From NCBI GenBank assembly GCA_011369445.1, contig DRQF01000023.1, forward strand, positions 1 through 64,000: a DNA stretch of 64,000 bases, given 5' to 3'. The position numbers and the translations under genes were made by a program. Positions 15,011-33,865 of the stretch are shown in pieces; position 1 is the first letter of the stretch, and the number at the start of each line of letters is the position of its first letter. Below the pieces are notes generated by a model. It worked only from the letters and a program-made list of their open reading frames with translations, made no database searches and was not told the origin of the DNA. The stretch is from Planctomycetota bacterium. GTDB lineage: Bacteria > Planctomycetota > GCA-002687715 > DRQF01.

Positions 15011-15883
15011 ATGGTTGACGTGCGACTGAACCCGGAGCTTTCCGACCCCTTCGTGCGGATGGATGCCGAGGGCGCGAAGCTGGCCCCGGAGGAATTCTCT
15101 CGCCGGCTCGTGGACGCCTACGAGTCCGGCCGCGTGATCATCCTGGAGAACCCGCCCTTCCATCCGGACATCGAGCTTCTGGGGCGGTTTCGACTCCCCG
15201 CCGACCCGCGATTCAAGAAGCTGAGCGACACCTTCTTCCTGCGCCCGGCACTGCACAGACGGGACGTGCGTGAGGCGTTCCGTGAGATGTTCTCACCCTG
15301 GACGGACTACTTCGCGTTTCGCCGCGAGGTAGGGCGACTGGGACGGGAGATTCGTGAGTTCATCGGGCATGCCTTCGTCGAATATCGGTTCTCGAAAGAG
15401 AACATCTCCTGGCGTTTCACGCCCAGCGGCGGCGAGCACATGCATCTCGATTTCTTTCACGGCGGAGAGGACGTCCAATATGTGCGTATGTTCATCAACG
15501 TCGACACGGAGCCCAGGCTGTGGAATGTGAGTTGGTCGTTGATGGAGCTGGTCGATCGATTCTATGAGTCGGCGGGGTTGGAACGTTTCCGCGGTCGGAG
15601 CGCGGATGCTCTCATCGAATGCCTGACGAAGAAGGCCTTCGGCTGGAAGGAGAATCCGGGCCAGGATGGGGAACCCCGGCACGAGGTCGTTCTCGAATCC
15701 GGCGACGTCTGGCTCTGCGACAGTCGCAAGGTTTCCCATCAGCTCGTTCGCGGCAACCGCTTGGTCTCCGCCAAGTTCCGAGCGATCCCCTCCACCATGA
15801 GAAACCCGGCCCTCCGCGTCGAAGCTCAGCTCGCCGCGTTTCATGCCGAGCGCGCCGGCCAGGGGGAGTCGGGGGGCGCCTGA
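15011..15883 (+). CDS. Putative Fe(II)/2-oxoglutarate dioxygenase, Kdo-hydroxylase (KdoO)-like
   Basis: SWRFTPSGGEHMHLDFFHGGEDVQYVRMFINVDTEPRLWNVSWSL (HxD motif), distal VWLCDSRKVSHQLVRGNRLVSAKF with candidate third His; layout resembles KdoO-family proteins. Confidence 0.55.
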   Translation: MVDVRLNPELSDPFVRMDAEGAKLAPEEFSRRLVDAYESGRVIILENPPFHPDIELLGRFRLPADPRFKKLSDTFFLRPALHRRDVREAFREMFSPWTDYFAFRREVGRLGREIREFIGHAFVEYRFSKENISWRFTPSGGEHMHLDFFHGGEDVQYVRMFINVDTEPRLWNVSWSLMELVDRFYESAGLERFRGRSADALIECLTKKAFGWKENPGQDGEPRHEVVLESGDVWLCDSRKVSHQLVRGNRLVSAKFRAIPSTMRNPALRVEAQLAAFHAERAGQGESGGA

Positions 15884-15980: not shown

Positions 15981-17750
15981 ATGTCCTTCGATGATGCCGC
16001 GCACGGCGGCCCCTTGAAGCCCCTTCTCGTCGACAACGAGCGGGCCGTCGCCCTCAAGAGAGAGGCGGTCGATCTTCCCTCTTGGTTCCTCACGGCCAAC
16101 CAGGTCTGTGACCTCGAGCTCTTGCTGAACGGCTCGTTTTCCCCCTTGACCGGCTATCTCGGCTCCGAGGATCTGGAATCCATCTATGAGAACGTCCGCT
16201 TGGCCGATGGCACCGTCTGGCCCATTCCGATCACCCTGGGCGTCAACCCGGAGTTCGTGAAGGAGCAGGGGCTGAGGGAGGGGGCGCGGGTTGCGCTCCG
16301 GCACCCCGAAGGCATGGTGCTGGCCGTTCTGACCATTTCCGAAGTGTACGAGCCCGATCGCATTCGCGAGGCCGAAGCCGTCTTCGGGACGGCGGACGAT
16401 GGGCATCCGGGCGTCTTCGACCTGCTGCACTACGGGCACGCGATGCGGTTGGCAGGGCCCGTGGAGGGCGTCGAGTTGCCGCCCCACCACCACTTCCTCC
16501 ACCTGCGCCAGACGCCGACGCGCTTGCGCGAACTCTTTCGCAACACGGGAAGCGAGAAAGTCCTCGCATTCCAGACCCGCAATCCCATGCACCGGGCCCA
16601 TGTGGCGATGGTGACACGGGCCGCGGAACAGGTCGGGGCCGACATCCTGATCCATCCCGTCGTCGGGGCGACGACGGTGGGAGACGTGGACGCGGTGACG
16701 CGCATTCGTTGCTACCAAAGCGTTCTCCACTATCTGCCCGAGCGAACCCGGGTGTCGCTTTTGCCCTTGGCGATGCGCATGGCCGGCCCTCGCGAAGCGG
16801 TTTGGCACGCCATCATCCGACGTAACCACGGCTGCACTCACTTCGTCATCGGTCGCGACCATGCCGGTCCGAAGCACCGCAAGACGGGCGAGCCGCTCTA
16901 CGGCATGTACGACGCGCAGGAATTGGTGGCGCGCTTTGCGGACGAACTGGGCATCCAACCCGTTCCGATGGAGGAAGTCGTCTATTCCAAGTCCGCGAAG
17001 GCCTACCGCGCCGCCAGCGAGGTCACGGATGCCTCCGACATTCTGCGACTCTCTGGAACGGAATTGCGCAGGCGATTGAGGCAGGGGGCGGAGATCCCGG
17101 ATTGGTTCTCCTTCCCCGAGGTGCTGGCGACGCTGCGCAAACGATACCCCGCCCGCAACAAGCAGGGGTTCACCGTGTTCTTCACGGGGCTGCCGAGTTC
17201 GGGGAAGTCCACGTTGGCCGCCATTCTCGAAGCCCGACTCATGGAGGTCCAGGATCGCCCGATCACTCTTCTCGACGGCGATATCGTGCGGAAGAATCTG
17301 AGCAGCGAACTCACGTTCTCGAAGGAGCATCGCGACCTGAATATTCTCCGAATCGGCTTCGTGGCCAAGCAGATCACGAAGAACGGAGGCGTGGCGCTGT
17401 GTGCCCCCATCGCCCCCTACGCCGTGGTCCGCCGGAAGGTGAGGGACGCCGTCGCGGAAGACGGGGGATTCCTGCTCGTCCACGTCTCCACGCCGCTCGA
17501 GGTTTGCGAGGCCAGGGATCGCAAGGGCCTCTACGCCAAGGCCCGCAAGGGGATTCTCAAGGGCTTCACCGGTGTGGACGATCCCTACGAAGCCCCCGAC
17601 GATGCGGATTTGGTCATCGACACCTCCCAGCACACGGCGCAGGAGGCGGTGGAGATCATCCTGAAGGAGTTGGATCGCGAGCGTTACATCGAGTTGAAGG
17701 ATACGGACGAGGAGTTTCCCCGGGGGCTCGAAGCGGAAGCCCACGCTTGA
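15981..17750 (+). CDS. sat/cysC: Bifunctional sulfate adenylyltransferase / adenylylsulfate kinase
   Basis: ATP sulfurylase: LAFQTRNPMHRAHVAMVTRAAE...VIGRDHAGP. APS kinase: GFTVFFTGLPSSGKSTLAAILEARL...ITLLDGDIVRKNLSSELTFSKEHRDLNILRIGFVAKQI. Confidence 0.96.
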   Translation: MSFDDAAHGGPLKPLLVDNERAVALKREAVDLPSWFLTANQVCDLELLLNGSFSPLTGYLGSEDLESIYENVRLADGTVWPIPITLGVNPEFVKEQGLREGARVALRHPEGMVLAVLTISEVYEPDRIREAEAVFGTADDGHPGVFDLLHYGHAMRLAGPVEGVELPPHHHFLHLRQTPTRLRELFRNTGSEKVLAFQTRNPMHRAHVAMVTRAAEQVGADILIHPVVGATTVGDVDAVTRIRCYQSVLHYLPERTRVSLLPLAMRMAGPREAVWHAIIRRNHGCTHFVIGRDHAGPKHRKTGEPLYGMYDAQELVARFADELGIQPVPMEEVVYSKSAKAYRAASEVTDASDILRLSGTELRRRLRQGAEIPDWFSFPEVLATLRKRYPARNKQGFTVFFTGLPSSGKSTLAAILEARLMEVQDRPITLLDGDIVRKNLSSELTFSKEHRDLNILRIGFVAKQITKNGGVALCAPIAPYAVVRRKVRDAVAEDGGFLLVHVSTPLEVCEARDRKGLYAKARKGILKGFTGVDDPYEAPDDADLVIDTSQHTAQEAVEIILKELDRERYIELKDTDEEFPRGLEAEAHA

Positions 17751-17776: not shown

Positions 17777-18496
17777 TCAGAGCTTGAAGTCTTCCCCCAG
17801 ATAGACCTCGCGAACCTTCGGGTCGGCGAGGATCTCGTCCGGTGAGCCCTCGGCCAGAATACGTCCGCGGTCCATGATGTAGGCGCGGTCGCAGACGTCG
17901 AGGGTTTCTCGCACGTTGTGATCCGTGACGAGAACACCGATGCCGCGATCCGTCAGATGGCGGACGATCCTGCGGATCTCCGCGACCGCGATGGGGTCGA
18001 TGGCGGCGAAGGGTTCGTCCAAGAGCAGGTACCGGGGTCGCGCCGCGAGGGCGCGAGCGATCTCGACGCGGCGGCGTTCGCCCCCCGAAAGACTCGTGGC
18101 GGGGCGCTGACCCAGGTGGCCGATCTGCAGTTCTTCCATCCAGCGGGTCAACTCCGCCCGGCGCCCCCTGCGATCGAGATCGGGCCGGAGTTCCAGGGCC
18201 ACCCGGATGTTGTCGGCAACGTTGAGTCCTCGAAAGACGGAGGCCTCCTGGGGCAGGTACCCCAGGCCTCGGACGGCACGGGCATGGACTGGCAGGCCGG
18301 CCAGATTGTCTCCGTCCAGCAGGATGCTTCCCCCATCCGCCGCAACGAGGCCCACGACCATGCGGAACGTCGTCGTCTTGCCGGCGCCATTGGGGCCGAG
18401 AAGGCCCACCACCTCCTTGCGGTCGACCCGGAGCGAGACCCCGGCGACGACTTCCTGACGTCGGTAGCTCTTTCTGAGTTCGTTCGCTTGCAGCAA
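17777..18496 (-). CDS. lptB: LPS export ABC transporter ATP-binding protein LptB
   Basis: LRKSYRRQEVVAGVSLRVDRKEVVGLLGPNGAGKTTTFRMVVGLV...GLGYLPQEASVFRGLNVADNI...LSGGERRRVEIARALAARPRYLLLDEPFAAIDPIAVAEI; probable TTG start at 18496. Confidence 0.93.
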   Translation of the reverse strand: MLQANELRKSYRRQEVVAGVSLRVDRKEVVGLLGPNGAGKTTTFRMVVGLVAADGGSILLDGDNLAGLPVHARAVRGLGYLPQEASVFRGLNVADNIRVALELRPDLDRRGRRAELTRWMEELQIGHLGQRPATSLSGGERRRVEIARALAARPRYLLLDEPFAAIDPIAVAEIRRIVRHLTDRGIGVLVTDHNVRETLDVCDRAYIMDRGRILAEGSPDEILADPKVREVYLGEDFKL

Positions 18497-18541: not shown

Positions 18542-19630
18542 GTGCCGCGATGGCTTCGTCCCAGGGAGGGGTTCTTGCTGCTGCTGGATCGTTATCTCGT
18601 GCGGGAGATGGCCAAGCCTTTCCTCTTGGTCCTGACCCTGCTTTGCCTCGTATTCGCTGCCTACAGCGCCACGGATTTCTTGGGCGACGCGGCGACCGGA
18701 CTGCTCGCGGCCGAGTCGGTGGCGCGCCTCGTCCTGTACAAGACGGCTATCGCGCTGGAGACTCTGCTTCCCCTGTCGCTGTTCATCACGGTCGTCTTCA
18801 GCCTGGGACGATTGGACCGGCGCCGGGAGTTGGTTGCGATGAACGCATGCGGCTACTCGGACGGTCGCATGGCCAGGGGCGCTGCCTTTCTCTTTGTCGT
18901 GGCGGCGCTCGTCACGGCGGTTCTCTCCCTTTGGTTGCGTCCCGCGGCGTACCGATCGATCTACGCTCTCCAGGCCCGAGTCGTGGAAGAACTCACCTTG
19001 GACGATCTCCAAGACTCTCGCTTCTACGAATCCCTGGACGGAAAAGAGGTCTTCTACGTCGGGAAACGGGACGGGACCGACGGAGCCCTCAGCCGCATCT
19101 TTCTGTGGATCGAGCACGATCCCCAACCCCTCGTCGCCGTTGCGCGCAGGGCGAAGCTGTTGCCGGTCACGGACGAAGGGCCCCGCAGGGTCGTCCTCCA
19201 AGATCTTCGGGTCTTCGGGACCCTGGGACGGTTCTCTGGCGTGAGGTCGGGGCGGTTCGTCTGTGATCTCCCCGTTCCCCGAGTTCTGCCCGTCGGGTAC
19301 AAGCGGAAGGCCGCATCCACGAGCCACCTGTTGTCCTCGAGCCGTCCCAAGGACGTGGCCGAGCTCCAGTGGCGATTGACACGTCCCTGGAGCACGCTGC
19401 TCGTCGGGTTCTTGGCGTTCCTTTTCGGCCGATGGCGGGGGCAGAGGTTCTCCGGCATGCTCATGGCCCTGGGCGCCTTCGTCGCCTACTACCAGGTCAG
19501 CATCGTGGCGCGAAACGGGGTCGAGCAGGGGGCGATCGGCGCTGTTCCAGGGCTTTGGTGGGTGGATGGTCTTTTGGCCCTCATCGTGGTTTGGCAGTAC
19601 CGGGTTCGGACCCATTGGGGGCGCACCTGA
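18542..19630 (+). CDS. lptF: LptF-type LPS export permease
   Basis: LLLLDRYLVREMAKPFLLVLTLLCLVFAAYSATDFL...LETLLPLSLFITVVFSLGRLDRRRELVAMNACGYS; start uncertain (GTG 18542 or TTG 18575, the latter behind AGGGAGGGG). Confidence 0.85.
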   Translation: MPRWLRPREGFLLLLDRYLVREMAKPFLLVLTLLCLVFAAYSATDFLGDAATGLLAAESVARLVLYKTAIALETLLPLSLFITVVFSLGRLDRRRELVAMNACGYSDGRMARGAAFLFVVAALVTAVLSLWLRPAAYRSIYALQARVVEELTLDDLQDSRFYESLDGKEVFYVGKRDGTDGALSRIFLWIEHDPQPLVAVARRAKLLPVTDEGPRRVVLQDLRVFGTLGRFSGVRSGRFVCDLPVPRVLPVGYKRKAASTSHLLSSSRPKDVAELQWRLTRPWSTLLVGFLAFLFGRWRGQRFSGMLMALGAFVAYYQVSIVARNGVEQGAIGAVPGLWWVDGLLALIVVWQYRVRTHWGRT

Positions 19631-19679: not shown

Positions 19680-20768
19680 GTGAACACGCTGGATCGCTAC
19701 GTGGGCAGGGCGTTTCTGCGCGGCTTCCTGGTGGTTGGTGCCGTTCTCCTGAGTCTTTTCAGCATTGCTGCCTTGGTCAAGGAGACGGACGATCTGGGGC
19801 GCGGAGGCTACGGGCTCGATGACGCTCTTCTCCAGATTCTTCTCACGACGCCTCGCAGGATCTCCGAGCTGTCTCCCGTGGCGGCCCTGCTCGGCGCCAT
19901 TCTCGGTCTTGGACTCTTGGCGGCTCATCGGGAAATCCTCGTCATTCGAGCGCTCGGGGGAAGCGCGCCCAGGGTCGCGCTGGCTGTCCTCAAGACCGCC
20001 GTTCCGTGCGCCGTGGCTCTCGCCCTGCTCATGGAGTTCATCTCGCCCCCCTTGGAGAAGGCGGCACGGGAGCGCTCGGTGCTGTTCCGATCGGACCGTC
20101 CGAGCCTGAGCACGTCACGGGGGTACTGGTTCCGCGAAGGAACGAGTTTTCTCCGCGTGGAAGACGTGGAGGATCAGACCCACCTTCGAGGCCTCGAGAT
20201 CTACCGTTTCGACGACAAGGGCCGCTTGGTCGAGAACCTCCGAGCGGCGCGGGCCACCCTGGAACTGGAGGAGGCTCGTTGGAGACTGGAGGACGTTCGG
20301 CGCGAGGAGTTCACGGGGCTAACCAGCCAGGTCGAGCACCGGGATACGATGAATTGGGCCTCGAGTTTGGGCGCGGACGAACTGGAACTCATTCTGCAGG
20401 CGCCCGAGACCTTGGCCCCGAGTGAGCTTTTCCGACAGGTGCGGGTGCGTCGAAAACGTGGGCTGGCCGTGGAACGCTACCAACTCGTCCTCTGGAAGAA
20501 GCTGGCGCGTCCCTTCGAGTTCTTGGCGATGCTTCTGCTCTCGTTCCCGTTCATGCTCACGGTGACGCTCGCGGCGGGGTTGGGAAAGCGCTTCGCCCTT
20601 GGGGCTCTTCTGGGCGGACTCGTCTTCCTGTTGGGAAAGGCTTCCGCCTACCTGGGACTACTTCTGCACCTGCCGCCCCAGCTGACGGCCCTGACGCCCC
20701 TGCTCATCGTGCTGGGGCTCACTGGCATCCTGCTGGCGGCTCAGTTCCCCGAGTCCAGGACGGTCTGA
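19680..20768 (+). CDS. lptG: LptG-type LPS export permease
   Basis: GTG start: VNTLDRYVGRAFLRGFLVVGAVLLSLFSIAALVKETDDLG...RRISELSPVAALLGAILGLGLLAAHREILVIRALGGS. Confidence 0.88.
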   Translation: MNTLDRYVGRAFLRGFLVVGAVLLSLFSIAALVKETDDLGRGGYGLDDALLQILLTTPRRISELSPVAALLGAILGLGLLAAHREILVIRALGGSAPRVALAVLKTAVPCAVALALLMEFISPPLEKAARERSVLFRSDRPSLSTSRGYWFREGTSFLRVEDVEDQTHLRGLEIYRFDDKGRLVENLRAARATLELEEARWRLEDVRREEFTGLTSQVEHRDTMNWASSLGADELELILQAPETLAPSELFRQVRVRRKRGLAVERYQLVLWKKLARPFEFLAMLLLSFPFMLTVTLAAGLGKRFALGALLGGLVFLLGKASAYLGLLLHLPPQLTALTPLLIVLGLTGILLAAQFPESRTV

Positions 20769-21706
20769 TCCACCGCCCGCGCGTGACGGATGACCCCGAG
20801 GTCCTCGGCGTCGGCCGCGGCGAAGGATCGGGACTCAGGGTCCCACTTCGACGCGGTCAGAGTGAGTCGCACACCGCCGCGCTCGCGCTCGAGGCGGAGC
20901 CTGTGATACCGTGCGCGACGTTCCTCTCCCTCGAGCCCCATGGCGGAGGCCGAGCCCACCCCGAGACTCCAGACGTCCTCGCCTCGGATTCTCAGGCGCG
21001 ACCGTACCGAGCGATGCGCATGACCGTGAAGAATGAGTTCGACTCCGGTCTTCTCGAGACAGTCCAAAAGCAGCGCGCGATCCTCCAGATCCTTCCGAGG
21101 ACGAACGACTCCGGATTCGGCCGGGTGATGGAGGTAGAGAATGCGAAACAATCCTTCCTTCCCGAGCTCCGAGAGCATCGCTTCCAGACGACGACTCTGC
21201 GGCACGCCGACTCGACCCGCGGCGGAAAACGGGGGCGTGGGGATCGCGGTCGAAAGACCCACGAACGCGAACTCACCACGGACGTCCACGCGGGGGAAAT
21301 GACCCCAGGCAGGCGGTCCTTCCGTCGGTCGAGGGGCCTCGGTCGGCAGATAGGGGGCGAGGCGTCCCAGGCCTTCCTCGTAACTCGAGCGGGCGTAGGC
21401 CTCGTGATTCCCTGGGACCACCAGGACGCGCTCCGGTCCCCCCAGCCGACGGAGGAACGCCGCCGCTTCGGAGAATTCGTCGGGGAGGCCCAAGTGAGTG
21501 AGGTCTCCGGTGACGAGCAAAACGTCCGGCGGTGCGGCCTCGAGATCCTTCCTCAAGGCCGCCAGAACCTCCGGGCGATGTTCGCGCCTTCGACGGAATG
21601 CCCACGACAGGTAGCCAAGAAGGCGCTTGCCCGCCAATTGCCTCCAGCCCAGGCCGGAGAGTCCGGTCAGGTGGAGGTCGGAGGTGTGGGCAATGTCACA
21701 GGCCAT
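20741..21706 (-). CDS. Metallophosphoesterase (calcineurin-like)
   Basis: HTSDLHLTG...DVLLVTGDLTHLGLPDEF...VLVVPGNHEAY...LILHGHAHRSV. ATG 21706. Confidence 0.92.
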   Translation of the reverse strand: MACDIAHTSDLHLTGLSGLGWRQLAGKRLLGYLSWAFRRRREHRPEVLAALRKDLEAAPPDVLLVTGDLTHLGLPDEFSEAAAFLRRLGGPERVLVVPGNHEAYARSSYEEGLGRLAPYLPTEAPRPTEGPPAWGHFPRVDVRGEFAFVGLSTAIPTPPFSAAGRVGVPQSRRLEAMLSELGKEGLFRILYLHHPAESGVVRPRKDLEDRALLLDCLEKTGVELILHGHAHRSVRSRLRIRGEDVWSLGVGSASAMGLEGEERRARYHRLRLERERGGVRLTLTASKWDPESRSFAAADAEDLGVIRHARAVDQTVLDSGN

Positions 21707-21882: not shown

Positions 21883-22848
21883 GTGAAGCACATAGGAATG
21901 ATCTCGGGACCGGGCTATCACAACAACCGCGGCGGCCTGAGTCGGATGCGGCGCTTCTTGGCCGGAATTCCGGAATTGAGGCATGAGGAGGTCGCCACCC
22001 CCGTGGACGTGGCAAGGGCGCTTTCCAAGTTCCGCGAAGCCAACGTGCGACTCGTTGTCGTGAACGGTGGGGATGGCACGCTTTCGATGGTCGTCACGGA
22101 GGTGATGCTCCGCCGCGCCGTCGGCGACGCGGCTCCACTCTTGGCCGTCCTCGAGGGTGGGCGAACGAACATGAGCGCGGGGGATTTTGGTTGCCGCGGA
22201 CGTCCTACCCGCGCATTGCGTCGCATCCTCCGTTGGGCCGAACGGCCGGGAGGCGACGGCGACATCGTCGAGCGAGCCGTGATCCGTCTGACGACATCGC
22301 CAGAGTCTCCGAGTCGCTATGGTTTTTTCGTGGGCGGTGGAATCATCTATCACGGTTCCAAGGGATGCTGGACCTTTCGTGAAACGAGCGTCTTGCCCGC
22401 CAGCGAAACGGGGCTGGGGACGGCGCTCGGCGTTGCGGCCATTCTGGGAAAACTGCTCGTCGGCAAGACCCCCTACCCGCCGGTCACGGTGGGCGTCACG
22501 GCTGACGGCGTCGACCTGGGAGCAAGACCATGGGTCGCCCTCTTCGTCACGACGCTCGAGCGCATGGCGCTGGGGATACGGCCTTTCTGGGGAGAGGGCG
22601 ACGGTCCGCTCCGCATCACCGGTGTGCCCGATCCTCCGCGAGGCGTTTTTCTCTCCGCACCCTGGTCGTTGCGGGGGAAACCCTGCCGGTGGACTTCACC
22701 GGAACGAGGCTACACGAGTCTACGAGCTCGCACGGCTGTTCTTACCCACATCGACGGTGTCACGCTGGACGGAGAATTGATCCAGCCCGAGGACGGTCAA
22801 CCCATGAGTCTGGATGCGACCGAGTCCTTGAGATTCGTGAGGACATGA
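21883..22848 (+). CDS. Diacylglycerol/lipid kinase family protein (divergent)
   Basis: ISGPGYHNNRGGLSRM (nucleotide loop), VRLVVVNGGDGTLSMVVTEV (GGDGT motif). Confidence 0.8.
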   Translation: MKHIGMISGPGYHNNRGGLSRMRRFLAGIPELRHEEVATPVDVARALSKFREANVRLVVVNGGDGTLSMVVTEVMLRRAVGDAAPLLAVLEGGRTNMSAGDFGCRGRPTRALRRILRWAERPGGDGDIVERAVIRLTTSPESPSRYGFFVGGGIIYHGSKGCWTFRETSVLPASETGLGTALGVAAILGKLLVGKTPYPPVTVGVTADGVDLGARPWVALFVTTLERMALGIRPFWGEGDGPLRITGVPDPPRGVFLSAPWSLRGKPCRWTSPERGYTSLRARTAVLTHIDGVTLDGELIQPEDGQPMSLDATESLRFVRT

Positions 22849-23819
22849 GGGCTGCCGAGGACGAGCACGACGGCGGGGAGGGGGATCCTCTGGTGGGGTC
22901 GGTCCTCGATGAGTTGCGGAAACCTCTTCCAAGGGGGGTGGAGCCTTTGGTCCGTGCGATTCGCGAGCGATTCGGCGCTTCGCTCGAGGCCGTGGTGTTC
23001 TACGGGTCCGCGCGCCGGGGAGATGATCTGGGTGAGACGTTGGCGGATCTTCTGGTTGTCGTGGACGGTTATCGACGTGCCTACGGCAGATGGGCTCCGG
23101 CTCTCGCGAACGCGCTCCTTCCACCCAACGTTTTCTATCTCGAGGAGCACGGAGGGGGGGACGTTGAGGTGAGAGCCAAGTACGCCCTCGTCTCCAGTCG
23201 CGATCTCATTCGCTATACCGCTTCCCACCGACTCCAGGTCTATTTCTGGGGGCGTTTCGCACAGCCTTGCCGACTGGCGTGGAGACGGGACGAGGAGGCC
23301 GAGGAACGGCTCGCGCGGACCCTCGCAGCAGCCGTGAGAACGTTTCTCGGAGAGACGGCATCTCTCGTGCGAGGCTCACTTCCACCGGAAGAAATCTGGG
23401 CCAAGGGCCTCACAACCTGCTATGGCACCGAGCTGCGGACGGAGGACGAGGGGCGAGCCCGTCGCATCGTGGAGAGCGAGGCCAGTGTTTACCGCGAGCG
23501 GACCGCGGCCGCGCTCAAAGGGAGCGGATGCCAGGGGCTCTCGTGGAACGACGGGCGTGTGGACATCGACCTCTCCACCTGGGCCCGTTTTCGAGGTCGC
23601 ATGCGTTGGCTCGTCCGCAAGCCCCACGGGAAGCTTCTCAACCTTCTCCGTTTGCTGAAGGCCGTGTTCACTTTTGAGGGCGGCGTCGACTATGCCCTGT
23701 GGAAGATTCGTCGCCACAGCGGGGTCGAGGTCGAGGTGTCGGATCGAGTTCGCAGGCACCCCTTGCTCTTTGCGTGGCCGACCCTGTGGAGAATCTATCG
23801 CGCGGGGGGATTCCGGTGA
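22845..23819 (+). CDS. TAM41/Mmp37-like phosphatidate cytidylyltransferase (nucleotidyltransferase superfamily)
   Basis: VVFYGSARRGDDLGETLADLLVVVDGYRRAYGRWAPALANALLPPNVFYLE; VSSRDLIRYTASHRLQVYFWGRFAQPCRL; LAAAVRTFLGETASLVRGSLPPEEIWAKGLTTCYGTELRTEDEGRARRIVESEASVYRERTAAAL, matching the order of recalled TAM41 landmarks. ATG overlaps the upstream stop (ATGA). Confidence 0.65.
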   Translation: MRAAEDEHDGGEGDPLVGSVLDELRKPLPRGVEPLVRAIRERFGASLEAVVFYGSARRGDDLGETLADLLVVVDGYRRAYGRWAPALANALLPPNVFYLEEHGGGDVEVRAKYALVSSRDLIRYTASHRLQVYFWGRFAQPCRLAWRRDEEAEERLARTLAAAVRTFLGETASLVRGSLPPEEIWAKGLTTCYGTELRTEDEGRARRIVESEASVYRERTAAALKGSGCQGLSWNDGRVDIDLSTWARFRGRMRWLVRKPHGKLLNLLRLLKAVFTFEGGVDYALWKIRRHSGVEVEVSDRVRRHPLLFAWPTLWRIYRAGGFR

Positions 23820-24670
23820 GCGCGTCCGAGCGCGCGCTCGTTCTGGCGGGGGAGAGGCCCGAGGGGGATCCCATGGCTACCGCCTTCGGGACGGCGTCGA
23901 AGGTGCTCCTTCCGGTGGCCGGGCGTCCCATGTTGTTCCATGTCCTCGATGCGTTGGCCGGGGCGGATCTCGAACGACCGTTTCTGGTCTCGGCGCTCTG
24001 GGAGCGGCTGCGGGATGAGCCGACCCTCGCCCGCCTCGTTGGCGAGGGTGTGGTCGAGGCCGTCCCCATGGGGCGATCGCCCTGCCTGTCCGCCATGGAG
24101 GCGCTGGACCGGTTGCCGGAAGAAGGCGCCGTCTTCATCACGACGGGCGATCACCCCCTCCTGACGCCCTCGCTGATCGAGGCGTTCCTGGCCCGGGCGC
24201 GGCGGGAAACGGCGGACTTGGTCGTGGGTGTGACGCCATCTGGACCGGTGCTCCAGGCCTTTCCGGGCCGGCGACGCACCGTCTACCGGCTGTCGGACGG
24301 CGGCTTCTGCGGCTGCAACCTCTTTTACCTCAGGGGGAAGCGAGGGCGGCGCGTCATCGATTTCTGGCGGTGCGTGGAATCGCAGCGGAAGAGTCCTCTC
24401 CGGTTGGCGTTCACCATCGGTCCGGGGGCTCTTCTGCGTTACGCTTTCCGACGGCTCAGTTTGAGCCAGGCCTTGGATCACCTCTCCCGGAAGACGGAGG
24501 CGCGGGTGGCTCCCGTGATCTTGGATGAACCCGAGGCCGCCGTGGACGTCGACCGCCCCGAGGACCGGGAATTGGTCGAGGAGATCCTTCGTCGACGAGG
24601 AGCGAATCCTGCCCGTGAAAACGCGACGCCGCATCAAGGTATGGACGCTCACGGGTTACCGCGCGGGTGA
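23816..24670 (+). CDS. MobA-like NTP transferase family protein
   Basis: GTG at 23816 overlaps the upstream stop (GTGA). ALVLAGERPEGDPMATAFGTASKVLLPVAGRPMLFHVLDAL...VFITTGDHPLLTPSLIEAFL. Confidence 0.82.
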   Translation: MSASERALVLAGERPEGDPMATAFGTASKVLLPVAGRPMLFHVLDALAGADLERPFLVSALWERLRDEPTLARLVGEGVVEAVPMGRSPCLSAMEALDRLPEEGAVFITTGDHPLLTPSLIEAFLARARRETADLVVGVTPSGPVLQAFPGRRRTVYRLSDGGFCGCNLFYLRGKRGRRVIDFWRCVESQRKSPLRLAFTIGPGALLRYAFRRLSLSQALDHLSRKTEARVAPVILDEPEAAVDVDRPEDRELVEEILRRRGANPARENATPHQGMDAHGLPRG

Positions 24671-25748
24671 GCGCCAGCAGATCCTCGCTCTGGCGGAAGC
24701 CCTGGGCTTTCCCTTCGAGGAGAAGCTCATCCACCACGGGATCGGGACGGCCGGCGCGAGCCTTCTGCGGAGGGTTTCGCTCGTGGGGATCCCCGCCTCT
24801 GACCGGGCAGCGCTCGCTCCGCCCTTTCCCGATCTTCTGATCGCGGCGGGTGCCAGGAACGAGCCCGCGGCTCGCTGGATTCGCAGACGTTCGCGCGGAG
24901 GGACGAAACTCGTCTTCGTCGGTCGAACCTGGGCGCCTCCCAGCGCCTTCGATCTCGTCGTGACCACGCCCCAATACCGCGTCCCGCCGGCGCCACAGGT
25001 CTTGGAGAACCTGGGAACGTTGCATCGCGTGCGCTCGGATCGTCTCGGCCGGGCTGGAAAGCGGTTTCGCGGAGAGTTCGCTCGGTGTCCCAAGCCGCGT
25101 CTGGGGGTCCTCGTGGGTGGGCCCAGCGGACCCTATGCGTTCGGCGTGCGCGCCGCGAGGCGCCTCGTTCGCGCGGCGGAGGAGGAGGCGCGAAGGCTGG
25201 GTGCGAGCTCGCTTCTCGTCACGACCAGCGCCAGAACTCCTTCGGACGTCGTGACGGTCCTCGAGGAGGAGTTCACGATGCCCGCCTTCGTCCATCGTTG
25301 GCGACGGAATGATCCGGAGAACCCCTACCTCGCCATTCTCGCCGAAAGCGCGGCGTTGCTCGTCACCGGCGATAGCGTGGCGATGATCAGCGAGGCCATT
25401 CAGACGGGAAAGACGGTCCGACTGTTCGATCCGGGCCGTGGGCGATTCTCGATGCGTGCCCCCGACGGCCCTCCCGTCACGGACGCCGAGAAGAACGACT
25501 TTCGCTGGAAAGCCTGGGGCTATGACTTGATGATGCGCCGGGGGCCTCGGAGGCTCTCGAGAGATCTCGCTTTGTTTCACCGTCGGATCATCGGTGCGGG
25601 CCATGCCGGCTGGGTGGGAGACCCTCTCCCGCCGACCCGGCCCGAACCGCCGCGAGATCTCGAGAGGACGGTGGAACGAGTTCGCGCACTCCTGAGGATC
25701 GGAGCTGGCGACGTCCATGAGGAGTTCGGTGTCGCCGCGGAGGCGTGA
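24615..25748 (+). CDS. ELM1 (mitochondrial fission ELM1-like) family protein, probable GT-B-like
   Basis: IKVWTLTGYRAGERQQILALAEALGFPFEEKLI...PDLLIAAGARNEPAARWIRRRSRGGTKLVFVGR...LGVLVGGPSGPYAF...LLVTTSARTPSDV...NPYLAILAESAALLVTGDSVAMISEAIQTGKTVRLF. Start (GTG 24615) approximate. Confidence 0.8.
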   Translation: MKTRRRIKVWTLTGYRAGERQQILALAEALGFPFEEKLIHHGIGTAGASLLRRVSLVGIPASDRAALAPPFPDLLIAAGARNEPAARWIRRRSRGGTKLVFVGRTWAPPSAFDLVVTTPQYRVPPAPQVLENLGTLHRVRSDRLGRAGKRFRGEFARCPKPRLGVLVGGPSGPYAFGVRAARRLVRAAEEEARRLGASSLLVTTSARTPSDVVTVLEEEFTMPAFVHRWRRNDPENPYLAILAESAALLVTGDSVAMISEAIQTGKTVRLFDPGRGRFSMRAPDGPPVTDAEKNDFRWKAWGYDLMMRRGPRRLSRDLALFHRRIIGAGHAGWVGDPLPPTRPEPPRDLERTVERVRALLRIGAGDVHEEFGVAAEA

Positions 25749-25750
25749 AT

Positions 25751-27025
25751 TCAGCGAGAGGGCGCCTCGGCCCCCTCTTCGGCTCTCCACGTGTCCACAT
25801 CCCGCATCCTGAACCCATTTTCGAAGTCCACCACGATGTGTTCCTCGGAGACCGTGGCCGTGTAGTCGAACCAGCGGCGATAGTGCTCGGCCACCCGGGA
25901 CGGGTCCTCGTACTCCTTCGCGATTTTCAGGTGCCGCTTCTTCGGCTTCTTGCCGGCCGCTCGGGCCTTCTCAATCTCGGCCTGGGTGATTTGCTTTCTC
26001 AGACGTTCGGCGGGGGTCCAGACCGTGACGAAGGTGACACGCCGGGCGCATTCGAACAGGTCGTTGGCCTCGTCTCGCTGATGGGTCACGGTCGATCTGA
26101 GGTACGGCCTGAGAAAGTCGTGGTGGAGGAGCATCCGCTCTCGATGGGGCGTATCGGGTTCGAAGATCCGGCTGGCGTTTTTGGGCTCGCCCCAAGCCGA
26201 CCCATCGGGAACACCGATCTTTTCGGCGAGTTCGGGGAGTTCGTTTTGTCGGAGGCGGCGCATGAGCGTCTTTTTTCCCGCGGACGTTGGCCCGCTCACG
26301 ACGAGCAGGTGGTCGATTCGCCGCTTGTGAGCGATGGCCACGAATCGATCCTTGTGCGGTGACTTGAGAACGTCCAGCCGGGCGAAGTGGCCGCGTTGAT
26401 AGACGAGGAGGTTTTCGATGGCCGCTTGGGTCATGTAGAAGCGCTGGATCTCCCTGCGGCCTCGGGTGCCCGATCGGGTTGGAAAGATCACGGGGAGCTT
26501 CGAGATGATGCCGCGGGCCAATCGGGAGATCCCGACCTTGCGTCGATCGTGACTGCCGATCGTGGCCACCTCGAGGATCAACTGCTCGTTTGCACGGCGC
26601 GTGAGGTGGTCGAGGAGTGCGAGCGGATTGCGCATGTGATGGAGGATGTTGAGGCCGAGGATGTAGTCGAAGTCCTCATCCAGGGGTTCCAACTCGATGT
26701 CACGACACTGGAACTCGGCCGGAGAGCCCAGGCACTCTCCCAGCAGACGAGCCTTGCGAACGCTATCTGGGTCGATGTCCAGTCCGACGACGCGGCGGGC
26801 GCCCCTTTTGATCGCTTCGAAGGAGAAAAACCCGAAACAACACCCGATGTCGAGGACGCTCTTTCCGGTCAGGTCGTCCGGGAAGATCAGGTCGGCAGTG
26901 GGAGAGCGGTCATAGCCGCCCGTCGAGAGCCCGTAGGGCAGGTCGACGTTCTGGTAGCGGAAGTCGTGCTCCTGGAGGAGTTGCTCGACATCCTCCCGAC
27001 TCCATGACGATTCCTGTGGACTCAA
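25751..27025 (-). CDS. SAM methyltransferase (CmoB/DUF1698-like) fused to a C-terminal P-loop nucleotide-binding domain
   Basis: N-half: LTGKSVLDIGCCFGFFSFEAIKRGARRVVGLDIDPDSVRKAR...FDYILGLNILHHMRNPLALLDHL. C-half: DHLLVVSGPTSAGKKTLMRRLRQNELPELAEKIG. Confidence 0.8.
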   Translation of the reverse strand: MSPQESSWSREDVEQLLQEHDFRYQNVDLPYGLSTGGYDRSPTADLIFPDDLTGKSVLDIGCCFGFFSFEAIKRGARRVVGLDIDPDSVRKARLLGECLGSPAEFQCRDIELEPLDEDFDYILGLNILHHMRNPLALLDHLTRRANEQLILEVATIGSHDRRKVGISRLARGIISKLPVIFPTRSGTRGRREIQRFYMTQAAIENLLVYQRGHFARLDVLKSPHKDRFVAIAHKRRIDHLLVVSGPTSAGKKTLMRRLRQNELPELAEKIGVPDGSAWGEPKNASRIFEPDTPHRERMLLHHDFLRPYLRSTVTHQRDEANDLFECARRVTFVTVWTPAERLRKQITQAEIEKARAAGKKPKKRHLKIAKEYEDPSRVAEHYRRWFDYTATVSEEHIVVDFENGFRMRDVDTWRAEEGAEAPSR

Positions 27026-28106: not shown

Positions 28107-29825
28107 CTACCCGTTGGGAACGGCGGAATCCTCTCGGTCGTCGGTCGCTTCATCGTCCCCGGGCGTGGCCAAACGAATGACCTGATCGGCGACGTCCACG
28201 AGGGCGGGCCGATGGGTGATGGCGAGGATCGTGATTCGTCCTCGAAAGGATGCCAAAGTCCGGGCCACGTCCTTCTCGGTCTCCGGGTCGAGCGCACTCG
28301 TGGCTTCGTCGAGGAGGAGGAGTTTGGGGCGATGGATCAGGGCGCGGGCGATCATGATGCGCTGCCTTTGCCCTCCCGACAGCCGGGCGCCTCGTTCGCC
28401 CACGGAGGTCTGTAGGCCCTCGGGCTGACTCTGTACGAAGTCCCACGCCCCTGCCCCCTTCAAGGCCAAGATGGCGTCCTCCTCGGTGAGCGTGGGGTCG
28501 CCGAGGGTCAGGTTCTGAAGGATGCTGTCGTGGAGGAGGAGATTCTCCTGCGGGACGTATCCGATCATGCGTCGCCAGCGCTTGACGTCCAGGTCCGACA
28601 GGGGAACGCCGTCCACGAGGATCTTTCCGTGAGTCGGTCGAAGAAGTCCCGTGATGAGATCGAGGATCGTCGTCTTTCCGGCTCCGGAGAAGCCCACGAG
28701 CGTTGCGAAGCTCCCCTCGGGAATGACCAGATCGAGGCCGTCGAGGATCTTGCGATCATCGTAGGAGAAACCCACATCCGCGAACCGGAGTTCCCTTTCG
28801 AACGTGGGCGTGCGATCTCCCTGGTGAGTTTCTTCCTGCGATTCGGCCTGGGCGACGATTTCGTGGAGCGCCGTGAACGCGGCCTCGCTGGTCACGAGGT
28901 TCTGATAGAAGGTTTGAGCCTTGCCCAGGTTCACCAGAATTCGCGATATGACGAGAAGCAGCATCGTCATTTTCGCGAGTTCGAGGTTCCACACCTCCAC
29001 ACCCACCCAGACGCCCAAACCGACCAGTCCGGCGAAGATCGGGAGCTGCAACGCCTTGAGGGCCTCTTTGCTCATGACCTCCTGCTTCAGAGCGGCGTTC
29101 AGTTCGTCGGTGTGTTCGCGGAGAAACAGGTCGGCGTGCTCCTGCCGTTCCATGGCCTTGAGGGGTTTGATGGCCAGGATCACGTCGGTGATGCCCGCCA
29201 GAAGTGACATCAGGACGGCGGTCTTCCTCTTGCCCGCCCGCCTCGCCGCCGAGACGAGGGACTGGAGAGTCAGGAGAGCGACGAAGGCTCCGGCGAGGTA
29301 GGCGAGGGTGATCTTCCAATCGATGAATGCCGCGACGGCGGCATAGGCCAGAATCCGAACTCCCGCGGCCGTCAGATTCGCCCCGTGGAGGTAGGCCTTC
29401 GCCGACTGTGTGGCCTGGATCGACATCGCGTTGGCGAGCCTGCCCACGGGCTGCCGGACGAAGTACTCCCAGCGGGCCGTCAAAAGGGAGCGGAGGAGCT
29501 CCAGGCGCAGATCCGTGGCGACGCGTGCGACAGTGAAGCCGACCTGCCTTTGCGCGAGGAGCAAAAGGGCGCTTCTGAGGAGGAGCCCCACGAAGACCAC
29601 GACGAGAAGGGTTCCCAGCGTGGGGGAGAGGTGAAGCGCATCCAGAAACCTTGCGATGAATTGAGCGGCGGCGCTGTCCGAACTCTCGCCGTGCATCATG
29701 TTTTGCAGGGCCGGGAGGATGGCGGTGACGCTCAGACCCTCGAGGACTCCGGAGAGGACGAGGGCCAGGACCGCCACCAAGCTGCGATAGGGATACCGTC
29801 GCGCGAAGAGCTTGAGGACGGTCAT
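28107..29825 (-). CDS. ABC transporter, fused permease/ATPase (MsbA-like exporter)
   Basis: TM domain plus FERELRFADVGFSYDDRKILDGLDLVIPEGSFATLVGFSGAGKTTILDLITGLL...LSGGQRQRIMIARALIHRPKLLLLDEATSALD. ATG 29825. Confidence 0.92.
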   Translation of the reverse strand: MTVLKLFARRYPYRSLVAVLALVLSGVLEGLSVTAILPALQNMMHGESSDSAAAQFIARFLDALHLSPTLGTLLVVVFVGLLLRSALLLLAQRQVGFTVARVATDLRLELLRSLLTARWEYFVRQPVGRLANAMSIQATQSAKAYLHGANLTAAGVRILAYAAVAAFIDWKITLAYLAGAFVALLTLQSLVSAARRAGKRKTAVLMSLLAGITDVILAIKPLKAMERQEHADLFLREHTDELNAALKQEVMSKEALKALQLPIFAGLVGLGVWVGVEVWNLELAKMTMLLLVISRILVNLGKAQTFYQNLVTSEAAFTALHEIVAQAESQEETHQGDRTPTFERELRFADVGFSYDDRKILDGLDLVIPEGSFATLVGFSGAGKTTILDLITGLLRPTHGKILVDGVPLSDLDVKRWRRMIGYVPQENLLLHDSILQNLTLGDPTLTEEDAILALKGAGAWDFVQSQPEGLQTSVGERGARLSGGQRQRIMIARALIHRPKLLLLDEATSALDPETEKDVARTLASFRGRITILAITHRPALVDVADQVIRLATPGDDEATDDREDSAVPNG

Positions 29826-29838
29826 GCGGCGTGGGATC

Positions 29839-30747
29839 TCATTGCGCCGCCAGGGTCTCGGTGCGATCCAGAACCTCGAAGGCGTCCGGGCGGACGTGCT
29901 CCTGGGCGATCTCGTGGCGAAGCATCTCCTCGGTGATGAGGTTCTGCTCGACACATTCCTTCAGCAGTCCGAAGAAGAACCTCTCTTGTGCCGGATCCGG
30001 GTGGGGGAGATACACGGCCGGTCCGAAGGCCCTCTTGAGGCGGACGAACGGGCGAATCCATGTCGCCGGCCGCCGAATGTCGACGCGTTTGCTCGCAAAG
30101 TTGAAGTCGCGCGGCAGGCCCGTCTTCCAGGGCTGCGTCGCCCGATGGGTGTTGTGGATGAGCCGCGTCTCGGGCGTCAGCCGGTCGAAGTCATTCCAGC
30201 GGTCGCCGATGAGTTGGATGCTCCCCTCGGGCTCGAGCCTCAGACAGATCCAGTCCATGTAGTCCCGCCTGCCGTCGAAGAGCTCGTCGAAATTCTCCTC
30301 GCACTTCCAGTGGGTGAGGCGGGCGCAGTCGAGGACCATGACGGAACTCGCCCAGCAACCGAGGCGCCCCTTATTTCCCGTGCGCTTGCGAGCGCCGATG
30401 GCCGCGTCGCCAAGATCTCGAGTGAGCAGCTCCCAGCATTCACCGACAGCAAAGACATCCGGATCCACGACCAGGGCGCGGCCCTGGTAACCCATGAGCT
30501 CCGGCGGCATGAAGCGGAGGGGGGTGAAAGACTGAAGGTTTTCGTATTCCCATCGGACCTGCCGGCCCTCGCGCAGATAGGTCTGCCCCTCGCGCGCTTT
30601 CAGGAAGGGATAGTCCTCGGTCGAGATGATGCGTACGTCGAAGGCATCGGCATGACGGGAGTTACGACGAAAGGAATACTCGGCGACGATGGCGCCAACG
30701 ATCTGTCGATGGTTTGTGTGAATGAACACACAGGGTCGATCATTCAT
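29839..30747 (-). CDS. Glycosyltransferase-like protein (paralog 1)
   Basis: MNDRPCVFIHTNHRQIVGAIVAEYSFRRNSR...SFTPLRFMPPELMGYQGRALVVDPDVFAVGECWELLTRD; DPD as DxD candidate; strong similarity to 30862..31791. Confidence 0.65.
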   Translation of the reverse strand: MNDRPCVFIHTNHRQIVGAIVAEYSFRRNSRHADAFDVRIISTEDYPFLKAREGQTYLREGRQVRWEYENLQSFTPLRFMPPELMGYQGRALVVDPDVFAVGECWELLTRDLGDAAIGARKRTGNKGRLGCWASSVMVLDCARLTHWKCEENFDELFDGRRDYMDWICLRLEPEGSIQLIGDRWNDFDRLTPETRLIHNTHRATQPWKTGLPRDFNFASKRVDIRRPATWIRPFVRLKRAFGPAVYLPHPDPAQERFFFGLLKECVEQNLITEEMLRHEIAQEHVRPDAFEVLDRTETLAAQ

Positions 30748-30861
30748 AGCGGACTCCTCATGGGTGGAGCCGGTCTCCGCACCCAGGTTGCCGAACATCG
30801 TCCTCGTCTTCAACGCCACCGCCTCGGACCAGGGCTGCGGTCGTCCCGCACCGCCGTGGAT

Positions 30862-31791
30862 TCAAGCGTGCGCGGCCAGAGCCTCTTCGGACGGCAGGGG
30901 CGGCGTCTGCTTCAGGACCTGGAAGGCGTCATGGCGGACATGGTTTCGCGCCATCTCGTCTCTCAGTTCCGACTCGGTCACCGTTCCCGCATCGAGGCAT
31001 TCCTTGAGCAGACCGAAGAAGAGATTCTGTTGATTCGGGTCGGGATGGGGACGGTACTTCCCGAGAAGGCCATACTCTCCGAAAAGGTGGCGCCGAGCGC
31101 GCATGAGCCAGGCCACGGGCGGGAAGAGTCGGAACCGCTCCGCGGGCCGCCAATCGATCGGAAGCCCCGTCTTCCACGGTTGCGTCATGCGCCGTGTCGT
31201 GTGCAGTAGCTTCGTTTTGTCCGTGAGCCTGTCGAAGTCGTTCCACTCGTCTTCGAAGACGCCCAGCGTCGCCGCGTCTTCCAGCTTGAGGCAGATCCAG
31301 GGCATGTAGTCACGCTTGAACTCGAACATGGCGCGGAACTGTTCTTCCACGCGCCAGTGCTTCAGCTTCGCGCAGTCGAGAAGCATCACCGAGCTGGCCC
31401 GACACTTGTCGATGTATCCCTTGGGACCGGAACGGAATCGGGAGATGACGGCCTTGCCCTGCATGTCCCTGGAGAGGAGCTCCCAGACGTCGCCGACGGC
31501 GAACACGTCGGGATCGACGACCACGGCGCGGCCCTCGTACCCCATGAGCTCTGGGGGCATGAAACGCAGCGGCGTGAACGACTGCAGGTCATCGTAGAGC
31601 CAGACCCGTTTGACGCCGTCCCTGAGGTAGGTCTTGCCGTCCATCTCGCGGATGAAGGCGTGGTCTTTGGTGTGGATCACCTTCACATCGAACTTGTCGT
31701 TGTTACGGGAGTAGCGTCGGAACGAATGGACGGCGACTTTCGCACCGATGTTCTGCTTGTGATTCGTGTGGACGAAGACGCACGGCTTCAT
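30862..31791 (-). CDS. Glycosyltransferase-like protein (paralog 2)
   Basis: MKPCVFVHTNHKQNIGAKVAVHSFRRYSRNN...LQSFTPLRFMPPELMGYEGRAVVVDPDVFAVGDVWELLSRD; ATG 31791 (listed ORF extension is antisense to the sulfotransferase gene). Confidence 0.65.
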   Translation of the reverse strand: MKPCVFVHTNHKQNIGAKVAVHSFRRYSRNNDKFDVKVIHTKDHAFIREMDGKTYLRDGVKRVWLYDDLQSFTPLRFMPPELMGYEGRAVVVDPDVFAVGDVWELLSRDMQGKAVISRFRSGPKGYIDKCRASSVMLLDCAKLKHWRVEEQFRAMFEFKRDYMPWICLKLEDAATLGVFEDEWNDFDRLTDKTKLLHTTRRMTQPWKTGLPIDWRPAERFRLFPPVAWLMRARRHLFGEYGLLGKYRPHPDPNQQNLFFGLLKECLDAGTVTESELRDEMARNHVRHDAFQVLKQTPPLPSEEALAAHA

Positions 31792-31811: not shown

Positions 31812-32753
31812 CTAGGCTTCGTGGGCGGCGCTGTCCTCTTTTTCTGCTGTACGGGTATAACCGAAGAGGGGATTCAGGTGAATGTCGATGTAGGATTCGA
31901 TCTCCTTCACCTGGCCGTCGTCGAAGTAGTCGCGAAACCCTCCCACCTTGCCGCGGCGCACCTTGAAGGAGTCGGGATTGTTCTTGTCCTTGGCGACCAT
32001 GCGGCTCCCCGCCCCGCGGAAGCTCTTGGATGCCTCCATCTTGCGCATGTTCTCGAACGACGCGAATTCCACCGCTTCGGCCAATTCCTCGGGGGAGGGG
32101 TCGGCGCCCAGGTGGGTGAGGACGCCGCCCAGCGCCTCCGCGGTGGATTGTCGCAGGTCTTCGTAACGGACGATGTGGAGCTGCTCGCCGAGAAGGGGCT
32201 TCGCTTCCGCCCAACCGTTCAGGTACTCGATGACCTTCGGGATCCCTGCTTCCTTGCCCATCACGAAATCGAAGATGGGCATCTCCAAGTCTTCGGGGTA
32301 GTCGTTGATGACGCGCTTGTGGGGCTTCATGCGGAACCGCCACTGAAAGAACTGGGACACCGCCGTGTCCGCGGGATGGCGAGCGAGGAAGACGACGGGC
32401 AGCCCCTTGTAGTCCACCTTGCTATCGCGGTGGCCTGTGAAGTCCCTCAGGTAGTTGTCGTGGGTGAAGAGCAGCTTCGGCGTGGCCGGGTTCTTGCGGT
32501 GGAAGTTGTCGAACCCCATGAGCAGGCTGTCGGGAAGTTTGTACCGCACCTGGTAGAAACGAGAGACCATCACCCTCAGCCAGGTGCGGCCGCTCTTCCC
32601 GTAGGACGCGATCACTCCGTCGGCCTGCTTCAGTTTGCGAGCCTCTTCGCGACCGCGGAGACGGCGCTCTGTTGCGATGCGGGACGAGCGGGGAAGAAAA
32701 AAAGTGGCGATCCAGACCAACTTTCGTCCGATGACGTGCAGGACGCTTCTCAC
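31812..32753 (-). CDS. Sulfotransferase family protein
   Basis: ADGVIASYGKSGRTWLRVMVSRFY (5'-PSB-like loop), VVFLARHPADTAVSQFFQW (3'-PB-like), C-terminal RRGKVGGFRDYF (RxGxxGxW/F-like). GTG start overlaps the upstream stop (GTGA). Confidence 0.88.
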   Translation of the reverse strand: MRSVLHVIGRKLVWIATFFLPRSSRIATERRLRGREEARKLKQADGVIASYGKSGRTWLRVMVSRFYQVRYKLPDSLLMGFDNFHRKNPATPKLLFTHDNYLRDFTGHRDSKVDYKGLPVVFLARHPADTAVSQFFQWRFRMKPHKRVINDYPEDLEMPIFDFVMGKEAGIPKVIEYLNGWAEAKPLLGEQLHIVRYEDLRQSTAEALGGVLTHLGADPSPEELAEAVEFASFENMRKMEASKSFRGAGSRMVAKDKNNPDSFKVRRGKVGGFRDYFDDGQVKEIESYIDIHLNPLFGYTRTAEKEDSAAHEA

Positions 32754-33865
32754 TGTGAACTCTCCTGTTCGGCGGGTCCGTCGGCGGCGAGGAGTTCCCG
32801 CACACGATCGACCACGACCTCTAGCTCGTCTTCGAGGCCCGCCCCGCCGAGGGGGAACGGCTCCCCGAACGCGACCGCGGCGCCGCGGCGTTCGAGCTTC
32901 CTGTGGATCCTGGTGATATCTCGGGGAAAGCCCAAGAGGTCGAGGCCGCAGAATCTGCGAAAAAACGAGGAAATGCTCCGCCATGGCGGCTTTTGGAGCC
33001 CCGCGGCGAGACGCCGCTTCCAGGAACCGGCGCGGACGGGAAGCTCGTAGATGGCCAGCGGACGGCCGAGGCGAGCCACCTCGACCAGCATGGAGACGCT
33101 GTCACCGGTGACCACGAAGCGGTCGGCATGGGCGAGAAGACCCAGGTAGGGGTTGTCTGCGGACTCCGGCCCCCACATGAACAACTCGGACGACGCAGGC
33201 AGGGACCTGCCCAGAGCGCTGACGACCTCGGAAGGCGTCCGACGGCTGGTCGTGATGTAGAGGCTGCCGCCGTCTTGGGCGATGAGCCGCGAGAGTCGTT
33301 GCGCGAGATCCTGGGCCACGTTTTCGTCCATGCGGAAGGGCTGGGTGGGCCCACCCACCAGCACGGCGGTCAGGGGTCTCGGCATCCGGCTCAATCGGTC
33401 GGCCCAGGCCGCGCGCGCCGCCTCGAGACGGCTGCGGTCCACCTCCATGAGGGGGAAGTCCAGGGGAAGAACGCGAGGCGAGATGGGCATGATGTACTGA
33501 GAGGGAACGACCGCCAGGTCGAACCGATTCAGCATCCTCTTCGGTCGTCCGATGATGGCCAGCCGTGTCTTCCCCCGGGAGCGCTGCTTGATCCACAGGG
33601 CCACCATCGACGGTCGGCTGCCGGAGGTCAGGATCAGATCCGGCCAGGGTGGTTCCAAGGGGTCGGAAGCCTCTCGGTCAACGTGGTCGAGAGAGGGGCG
33701 AAAAGTCGGCTTTCCCTGGCGGAACTTTGGAAGGAAGACGAGATTCTTCTCCTCGAACGGGCGACCGAGGGCCCGGGCCACCCGCCGCACTTGCGCGTTG
33801 TCGCCGAGTTTGTCGCCGAGGACGAGCCAGATCCGAGGTTGGGGGCGTTCGCCGGCCGTTTCCAT
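32750..33865 (-). CDS. ELM1 (mitochondrial fission ELM1-like) family protein, second paralog
   Basis: IWLVLGDKLGDNAQVRRVARALGRPFEEKNLVF...PDLILTSGSRPSMVALWIKQRSRGKTRLAIIGRP...TAVLVGGPTQPFRMD...YITTSRRTPSEVV...NPYLGLLAHADRFVVTGDSVSMLVEVARLGRPLAIYEL. Confidence 0.85.
   Translation of the reverse strand: METAGERPQPRIWLVLGDKLGDNAQVRRVARALGRPFEEKNLVFLPKFRQGKPTFRPSLDHVDREASDPLEPPWPDLILTSGSRPSMVALWIKQRSRGKTRLAIIGRPKRMLNRFDLAVVPSQYIMPISPRVLPLDFPLMEVDRSRLEAARAAWADRLSRMPRPLTAVLVGGPTQPFRMDENVAQDLAQRLSRLIAQDGGSLYITTSRRTPSEVVSALGRSLPASSELFMWGPESADNPYLGLLAHADRFVVTGDSVSMLVEVARLGRPLAIYELPVRAGSWKRRLAAGLQKPPWRSISSFFRRFCGLDLLGFPRDITRIHRKLERRGAAVAFGEPFPLGGAGLEDELEVVVDRVRELLAADGPAEQESSQ

Follow-up and report, generated by a model that had tools for sequence, protein, structure and literature searches.

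In Caulobacter crescentus, ceramide phosphoglycerate (CPG) and ceramide diphosphoglycerate (CPG2) depend on the CC_1152-CC_1168 cluster, which holds cpgA-D, CC_1153, CC_1158, lptF2/G2, spt, cerS and cerR. Ceramide is phosphorylated by the ceramide kinase CpgB (PMC10331486), CpgD yields CDP-glycerate, CPG needs CpgC and CPG2 needs CpgA (PMC10331486, PMC11324152, PMC12275187). CpgC (CC_1161) is reported to carry a CDP-diacylglycerol (CDP-DAG)-synthase domain (PMC11324152), and its mechanism has been described as unidentified (PMC12275187). Here we analyse four genes, A to D, in a 64,000-nucleotide stretch (the window; contig DRQF01000023.1) of a Planctomycetota metagenome-assembled genome. Genes A, B and C have their counterparts among the genes required for CPG synthesis in Caulobacter. 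We conclude that the operon is a real, divergent member of the CPG-type phosphosphingolipid pathway, apparently in an undescribed form that involves ELM1 proteins and a sulfotransferase. Taken as a whole, the locus is best explained as building the polar head group of an anionic phosphosphingolipid bound for the outer membrane, a reading to which we give a probability of roughly 0.78, with the enzyme chemistry predicted.

Genes A to D form an overlapping operon

All four open reading frames are intact and form an overlapping chain on the forward strand. A and B share 4 bp (ATGA, 22845-22848), as do B and C (GTGA, 23816-23819), and C overlaps D by about 56 bp if D starts at the GTG at 24615. 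An alternative ATG at 24525 would extend this overlap to 146 bp; the GTG is the best start, since residue 10 counted from it is where conserved homology sets in. Given the overlap, D is probably co-translated with C. Scans for promoters and terminators inside the operon returned nothing exceeding chance. An earlier note on this DNA had described these overlaps and called the products a lipid kinase, a TAM41-like protein, a MobA-like nucleotidyltransferase and an ELM1 protein; the overlaps are borne out, and family, profile and fold matches uphold the domain calls.

Gene A matches DAGK_cat in Pfam (1e-8) and retains the motifs GGDGTL and LDGE. It scores 265 bits against a profile made from 21 kinases of sphingolipid loci that contain CpgA, Planctomycetota excluded, and is the only match in its genome to the kinase of a Pseudomonas cluster. 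By this homology A corresponds to CpgB and is a putative ceramide kinase. Gene C matches NTP_transf_3 (1.5e-15), is 47% identical to the NTase2 of Roseomonas, of which it is the sole match in the genome, and scores 290 bits against the equivalent profile from CpgA-containing loci, which places it with the CC_1153-type nucleotidyltransferases. Among solved structures, Thermus TTHA0179 (PDB 2dpw, 1.7e-22), whose function is unknown, is its sole close relative. In a Roseomonas locus (L008) whose gene order agrees with the published order of CC_1152-CC_1163, homologues of A, B and C occupy the slots of CC_1160, CC_1161 and CC_1153. The mapping onto Caulobacter genes rests on this synteny together with published descriptions.

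Gene B has a predicted Tam41 fold

Gene B alone gave no Pfam match above threshold and did not reach the cut-off of the Tam41 family, PF09139. That family is matched by 20 of 48 B relatives (best 7e-10), a more distant relative (L014) scores 26.4 against a cut-off of 24, and a profile built from the 48 sequences retrieves Tam41 from the PDB (E 1e-4). The AlphaFold model of B has a mean predicted confidence (pLDDT) of 91.6, and its five best PDB matches are all Tam41 (Foldseek ranks 1-5, E 2e-8 to 4e-7, TM 0.46-0.61), among them 7ecd with CTP-Mg. Moreover, B scores 358 bits against a profile from CpgA-containing loci, Planctomycetota excluded, which together with the Roseomonas synteny identifies it as the counterpart of CpgC. 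A PF09139 scan of the genome did not pick up B, and a Caulobacter control genome was likewise without any match; a family search alone would therefore overlook the link to Tam41.

By its modelled fold and its profile, B is a Tam41-type cytidylyltransferase, and we predict from that fold that it acts as a CTP:ceramide-1-phosphate cytidylyltransferase. It shares with the Tam41/Mmp37 CDP-DAG synthases (PF09139; PDB 6ig2, 6ig4, 7ecd) the fold and the aligned blocks KYxVxS and RFxxP. Unlike them, it falls below the Pfam threshold, is 12-14% identical and is paired with a ceramide-type kinase.

The kinase-B pair is widely conserved

A profile search of genome contigs yielded 155 B relatives, of which 80 loci were kept with flanks of up to 10 kb. 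They come from Planctomycetota, Proteobacteria, Nitrospirota, Deltaproteobacteria/Desulfobacterota-type bacteria, Gemmatimonadetes and Binatia. A kinase gene is present in 70 of the 80, Lpt genes in 44, NTase2 and phosphoesterase in 30 each, ELM1 in 29, CpgA and CerS in 28 each, Spt in 23, sulfotransferase in 22 and CpgD in 17. The kinase gene lies immediately upstream of B on the same strand in 67 of the 80, so the A-B linkage is not due to chance. The earlier note would have abandoned its proposal had homologues of these genes never co-localised; with B as the anchor, the opposite was found. On plasmids of Roseomonas, Pseudomonas and Diaphorobacter, B homologues lie within sphingolipid clusters with LptF/LptG that variously hold genes for Spt, CerS, CerR, an acyl-AMP ligase and a CDP-alcohol phosphatidyltransferase.

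The same note had stated that it knew of no described pathway of such a composition. This is wrong where A, B and C are concerned, as they match the Caulobacter CPG/CPG2 genes. Its outline of lipid phosphorylation, CDP-lipid formation, activation of a head group and transfer comes near the best-supported reading, except that the lipid is probably ceramide and A to C have counterparts in a described pathway. What appears undescribed is confined to the association with ELM1, partner proteins and a sulfotransferase and to the missing CpgA and CpgD. We found no paper in the open-licence literature that links ELM1 or CDP-ceramide to bacterial sphingolipids.

An ELM1/sulfotransferase module possibly replacing CpgA

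Gene D is a clear member of the ELM1 family (PF06258, Mito_fiss_Elm1, 3.6e-54), and its model (pLDDT 87.9) matches glycosyltransferase structures of the GT-B fold. A second ELM1-family protein, a sulfotransferase and two copies of an unannotated partner protein are encoded 4-8 kb downstream. The partner proteins are highly conserved, with the motifs DPDxFA, WNDFD and TQPWKTGL, and have relatives fused to ELM1 in three loci (L007, L012, L061); they have no match in Pfam, NCBIfam or the PDB. By eye they looked GT-A-like, an assignment that these databases do not support and that we set aside. The ELM1 tree resolves three groups, fusion proteins, type 1 (D) and type 2 (the second protein), all three of which occur in this genome. 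Two further ELM1 genes, one fused to a partner domain, lie in the same genome (G000:C90:1590-5611, L149).

At least one of stand-alone ELM1, sulfotransferase and partner accompanies B in 28 loci, mostly of Gammaproteobacteria (many Halieaceae), with Kiloniellales and Planctomycetota besides. CpgA occurs in another 28, and no locus has both (Fisher p 2e-7 over the 80 loci, which include related genomes and contig ends). ELM1 follows B immediately in six gammaproteobacterial loci. Identity of module proteins between Planctomycetota and Gammaproteobacteria reaches 76%, and this unusual cross-phylum similarity suggests horizontal transfer.

CpgA, the CDP-alcohol phosphatidyltransferase, had no match in the window's genome or in two genomes of the same family (G001, G002), the three being 77-90% complete. 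CpgD-like matches in these three genomes are 28-33% identical stretches of frames of about 580-660 aa, plus weaker general matches, and frames with such stretches also occur in relatives that have no B. In a genome of the same order (G011), both CpgA and CpgD adjoin B. The window's genome thus differs from Caulobacter in having neither a CpgA match nor a clear CpgD, with ELM1 proteins, partner proteins and a sulfotransferase in the cluster instead. It resembles Caulobacter in its counterparts of CpgB, CpgC, CC_1153, CC_1158 and LptF2/G2 within the window and in possessing the ceramide genes.

Ceramide synthesis and neighbouring genes

The genome encodes Spt, CerS and CerR. CerS and Spt are adjacent and CerR is divergent, an arrangement common to relatives, on a contig (G000:C268, L048) separate from that of the operon, in contrast to Caulobacter. 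Also unlike Caulobacter, Spt is closest to a Bacteroidota-type model, and a search next to it revealed no AasR gene. Spt and CerS homologues occur in all four genomes that carry the operon-type B (G000, the window's own, G001, G002 and G011). A compact Spt/CerS/CerR cluster is also present in relatives of the same order that lack B, and other head groups are therefore likely in the order.

Genes around the operon are listed in Table 1. The phosphoesterase lies on the strand opposite B in 27 of the 30 loci that have one. The genome has two LptF/LptG pairs, one of them in this cluster. The ATP sulfurylase/adenylylsulfate (APS) kinase fusion may supply 3'-phosphoadenylylsulfate (PAPS) to the sulfotransferase. 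Close to it and the Lpt genes, a weak Kdo hydroxylase match (15011-15883, forward strand) suggests lipopolysaccharide (LPS)-like chemistry nearby. A methyltransferase gene (25751-27025, reverse strand), whose product is weakly nucleotide kinase-like in its C-terminal region, has no relative in the B loci examined, and a fumarase gene is also among the neighbours.

Table 1. Genes of the operon and its surroundings in the window
Feature	Coordinates	Strand	Remarks
ATP sulfurylase/APS kinase fusion	15981..17750	+	PF01747 8e-80, PF01583 1e-55; relative in B locus L082
LptB-like ABC ATPase	17777..18460	-	start approximate; 57% identity to gene in locus L107
LptF homologue	18575..19630	+	start approximate; TIGR04407 253.7 bits, cut-off 230
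LptG homologue	19680..20768	+	TIGR04408 305.9 bits, cut-off 240
CC_1158-like metallophosphoesterase, divergent to A	20741..21706	-	PF00149; 42.6% identity to Roseomonas sphingolipid-cluster phosphoesterase
Gene A, CpgB-like ceramide/lipid kinase (DAGK family)	21883..22848	+	GTG start, 321 aa
Gene B, CpgC-like Tam41-fold nucleotidyltransferase	22845..23819	+	ATG start, 324 aa
Gene C, CC_1153-type (NTase2, MobA/CofC-like) nucleotidyltransferase	23816..24670	+	GTG start, 284 aa
Gene D, ELM1-family GT-B-fold protein (ELM1 type 1)	24615..25748	+	GTG start, 377 aa
MsbA-like ABC exporter, candidate flippase	28107..29825	-	43-49% identical to genes of several B loci; MsbA-type match general and under the cut-off
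Partner protein copy 1, unannotated	29839..30819	-	relatives fused to ELM1 elsewhere
Partner protein copy 2, unannotated	30862..31791	-	76% identical to gene in gammaproteobacterial B locus
Sulfotransferase	31812..32753	-	PF00685 5.5e-19; 57% identity in L119, 53-56% in L057 and L013
Second ELM1-family protein (type 2)	32750..33865	-	PF06258 4.8e-60; tree

A proposed pathway and its alternatives

On the best reading, the operon follows a modified form of the known pathway: ceramide becomes phosphorylated and CDP-activated and receives a different anionic head, probably glycosylated and possibly sulfated; the chemistry given to B, C and D is predicted. Ceramide from the separately encoded Spt, CerR and CerS would be converted by A to ceramide 1-phosphate, from which B, using CTP, would form CDP-ceramide. 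C would provide a small phospho-acid or alcohol activated as its nucleoside diphosphate derivative, by analogy with CC_1153, MobA and CofC. D and the downstream module would add sugar and possibly sulfate where Caulobacter relies on CpgD and CpgA for a second phosphoglycerate. Outward transport of the product would fall to the MsbA-like exporter and the cluster's LptF/LptG pair.

Several observations weigh against this pathway. The genome (4.5 Mb) is about 90% complete, and its ceramide genes are on a different contig from the operon. The best models of Spt are serine palmitoyltransferases, but its score is below the NCBIfam cut-offs (501 of 640 bits). G001 and G002 have no D-type ELM1 directly after C, only type 2 and the sulfotransferase nearby. 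Caulobacter CC_1153 mutants lack CPG2 yet retain CPG (PMC11324152), which blurs the step assigned to C. Finally, the 80 loci include related genomes and are not independent, so that p-values overstate significance and are only indicative, and contig ends conceal genes.

With a probability that we put somewhat short of even odds, ELM1, partner and sulfotransferase constitute a second head-group branch in Planctomycetota, Gammaproteobacteria and some Alphaproteobacteria, replacing CpgD/CpgA to give a glycosylated, sulfated ceramide-phosphate lipid. The operon could instead carry out ordinary CPG synthesis and make only the mono-phosphoglycerate lipid, its neighbours being envelope genes that serve LPS or another glycan. 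Caulobacter CPG requires CpgB and CpgC and neither CpgA nor CpgD (PMC11324152), LpxC is found in the genome, and ELM1 proteins are predicted glycosyltransferases of the lipooligosaccharide (LOS) core in Acinetobacter (PMC4172580). That known bacterial context of the ELM1/GtrOC1 family is the LOS outer core, whereas the ELM1 proteins of the window are linked to a phosphosphingolipid operon. The overlap of D with C, the gammaproteobacterial loci with ELM1 directly after B and the mutual exclusion of module and CpgA all speak against mere proximity, and we regard ordinary CPG synthesis as rather unlikely.

Less probable still is a glycerolipid pathway, in which A would make phosphatidate and B CDP-DAG, as does mitochondrial Tam41, to feed an unusual phospholipid. 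CpgB also phosphorylates diacylglycerol in vitro (PMC10331486), and the fold of B matches a CDP-DAG synthase. Against this, ceramide-synthesis genes accompany B in 39 of the 80 loci, and in 23 of the 34 whose flanks reach 7 kb or more on each side, and Spt and CerS homologues are present in all four carriers of the operon-type B noted above. Plain phosphatidate/CDP-DAG synthesis was dropped as the leading reading because of these ceramide genes. The earlier note's proposal of an undescribed pathway unconnected with sphingolipids is very improbable: the exact order A-B-C-D was absent from the other loci examined here, but the context is CPG-type and synteny and profiles give A, B and C each a counterpart in a described pathway.

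Implications

The confidently modelled Tam41 fold of B and its wide co-occurrence make CTP:ceramide-1-phosphate cytidylyltransferase activity directly testable for CpgC, the Caulobacter step whose mechanism was called unidentified (PMC12275187). Our survey also extends CPG-type gene sets, previously compared among alpha-, beta- and gamma-proteobacteria (PMC11324152), to Planctomycetota, Nitrospirota, Desulfobacterota-type bacteria and Binatia. If the ELM1/sulfotransferase version proves true, it would give a function to the poorly understood ELM1 family and may, hypothetically, bear on the sulfated sphingolipids reported from the Black Sea (PMC12619533).

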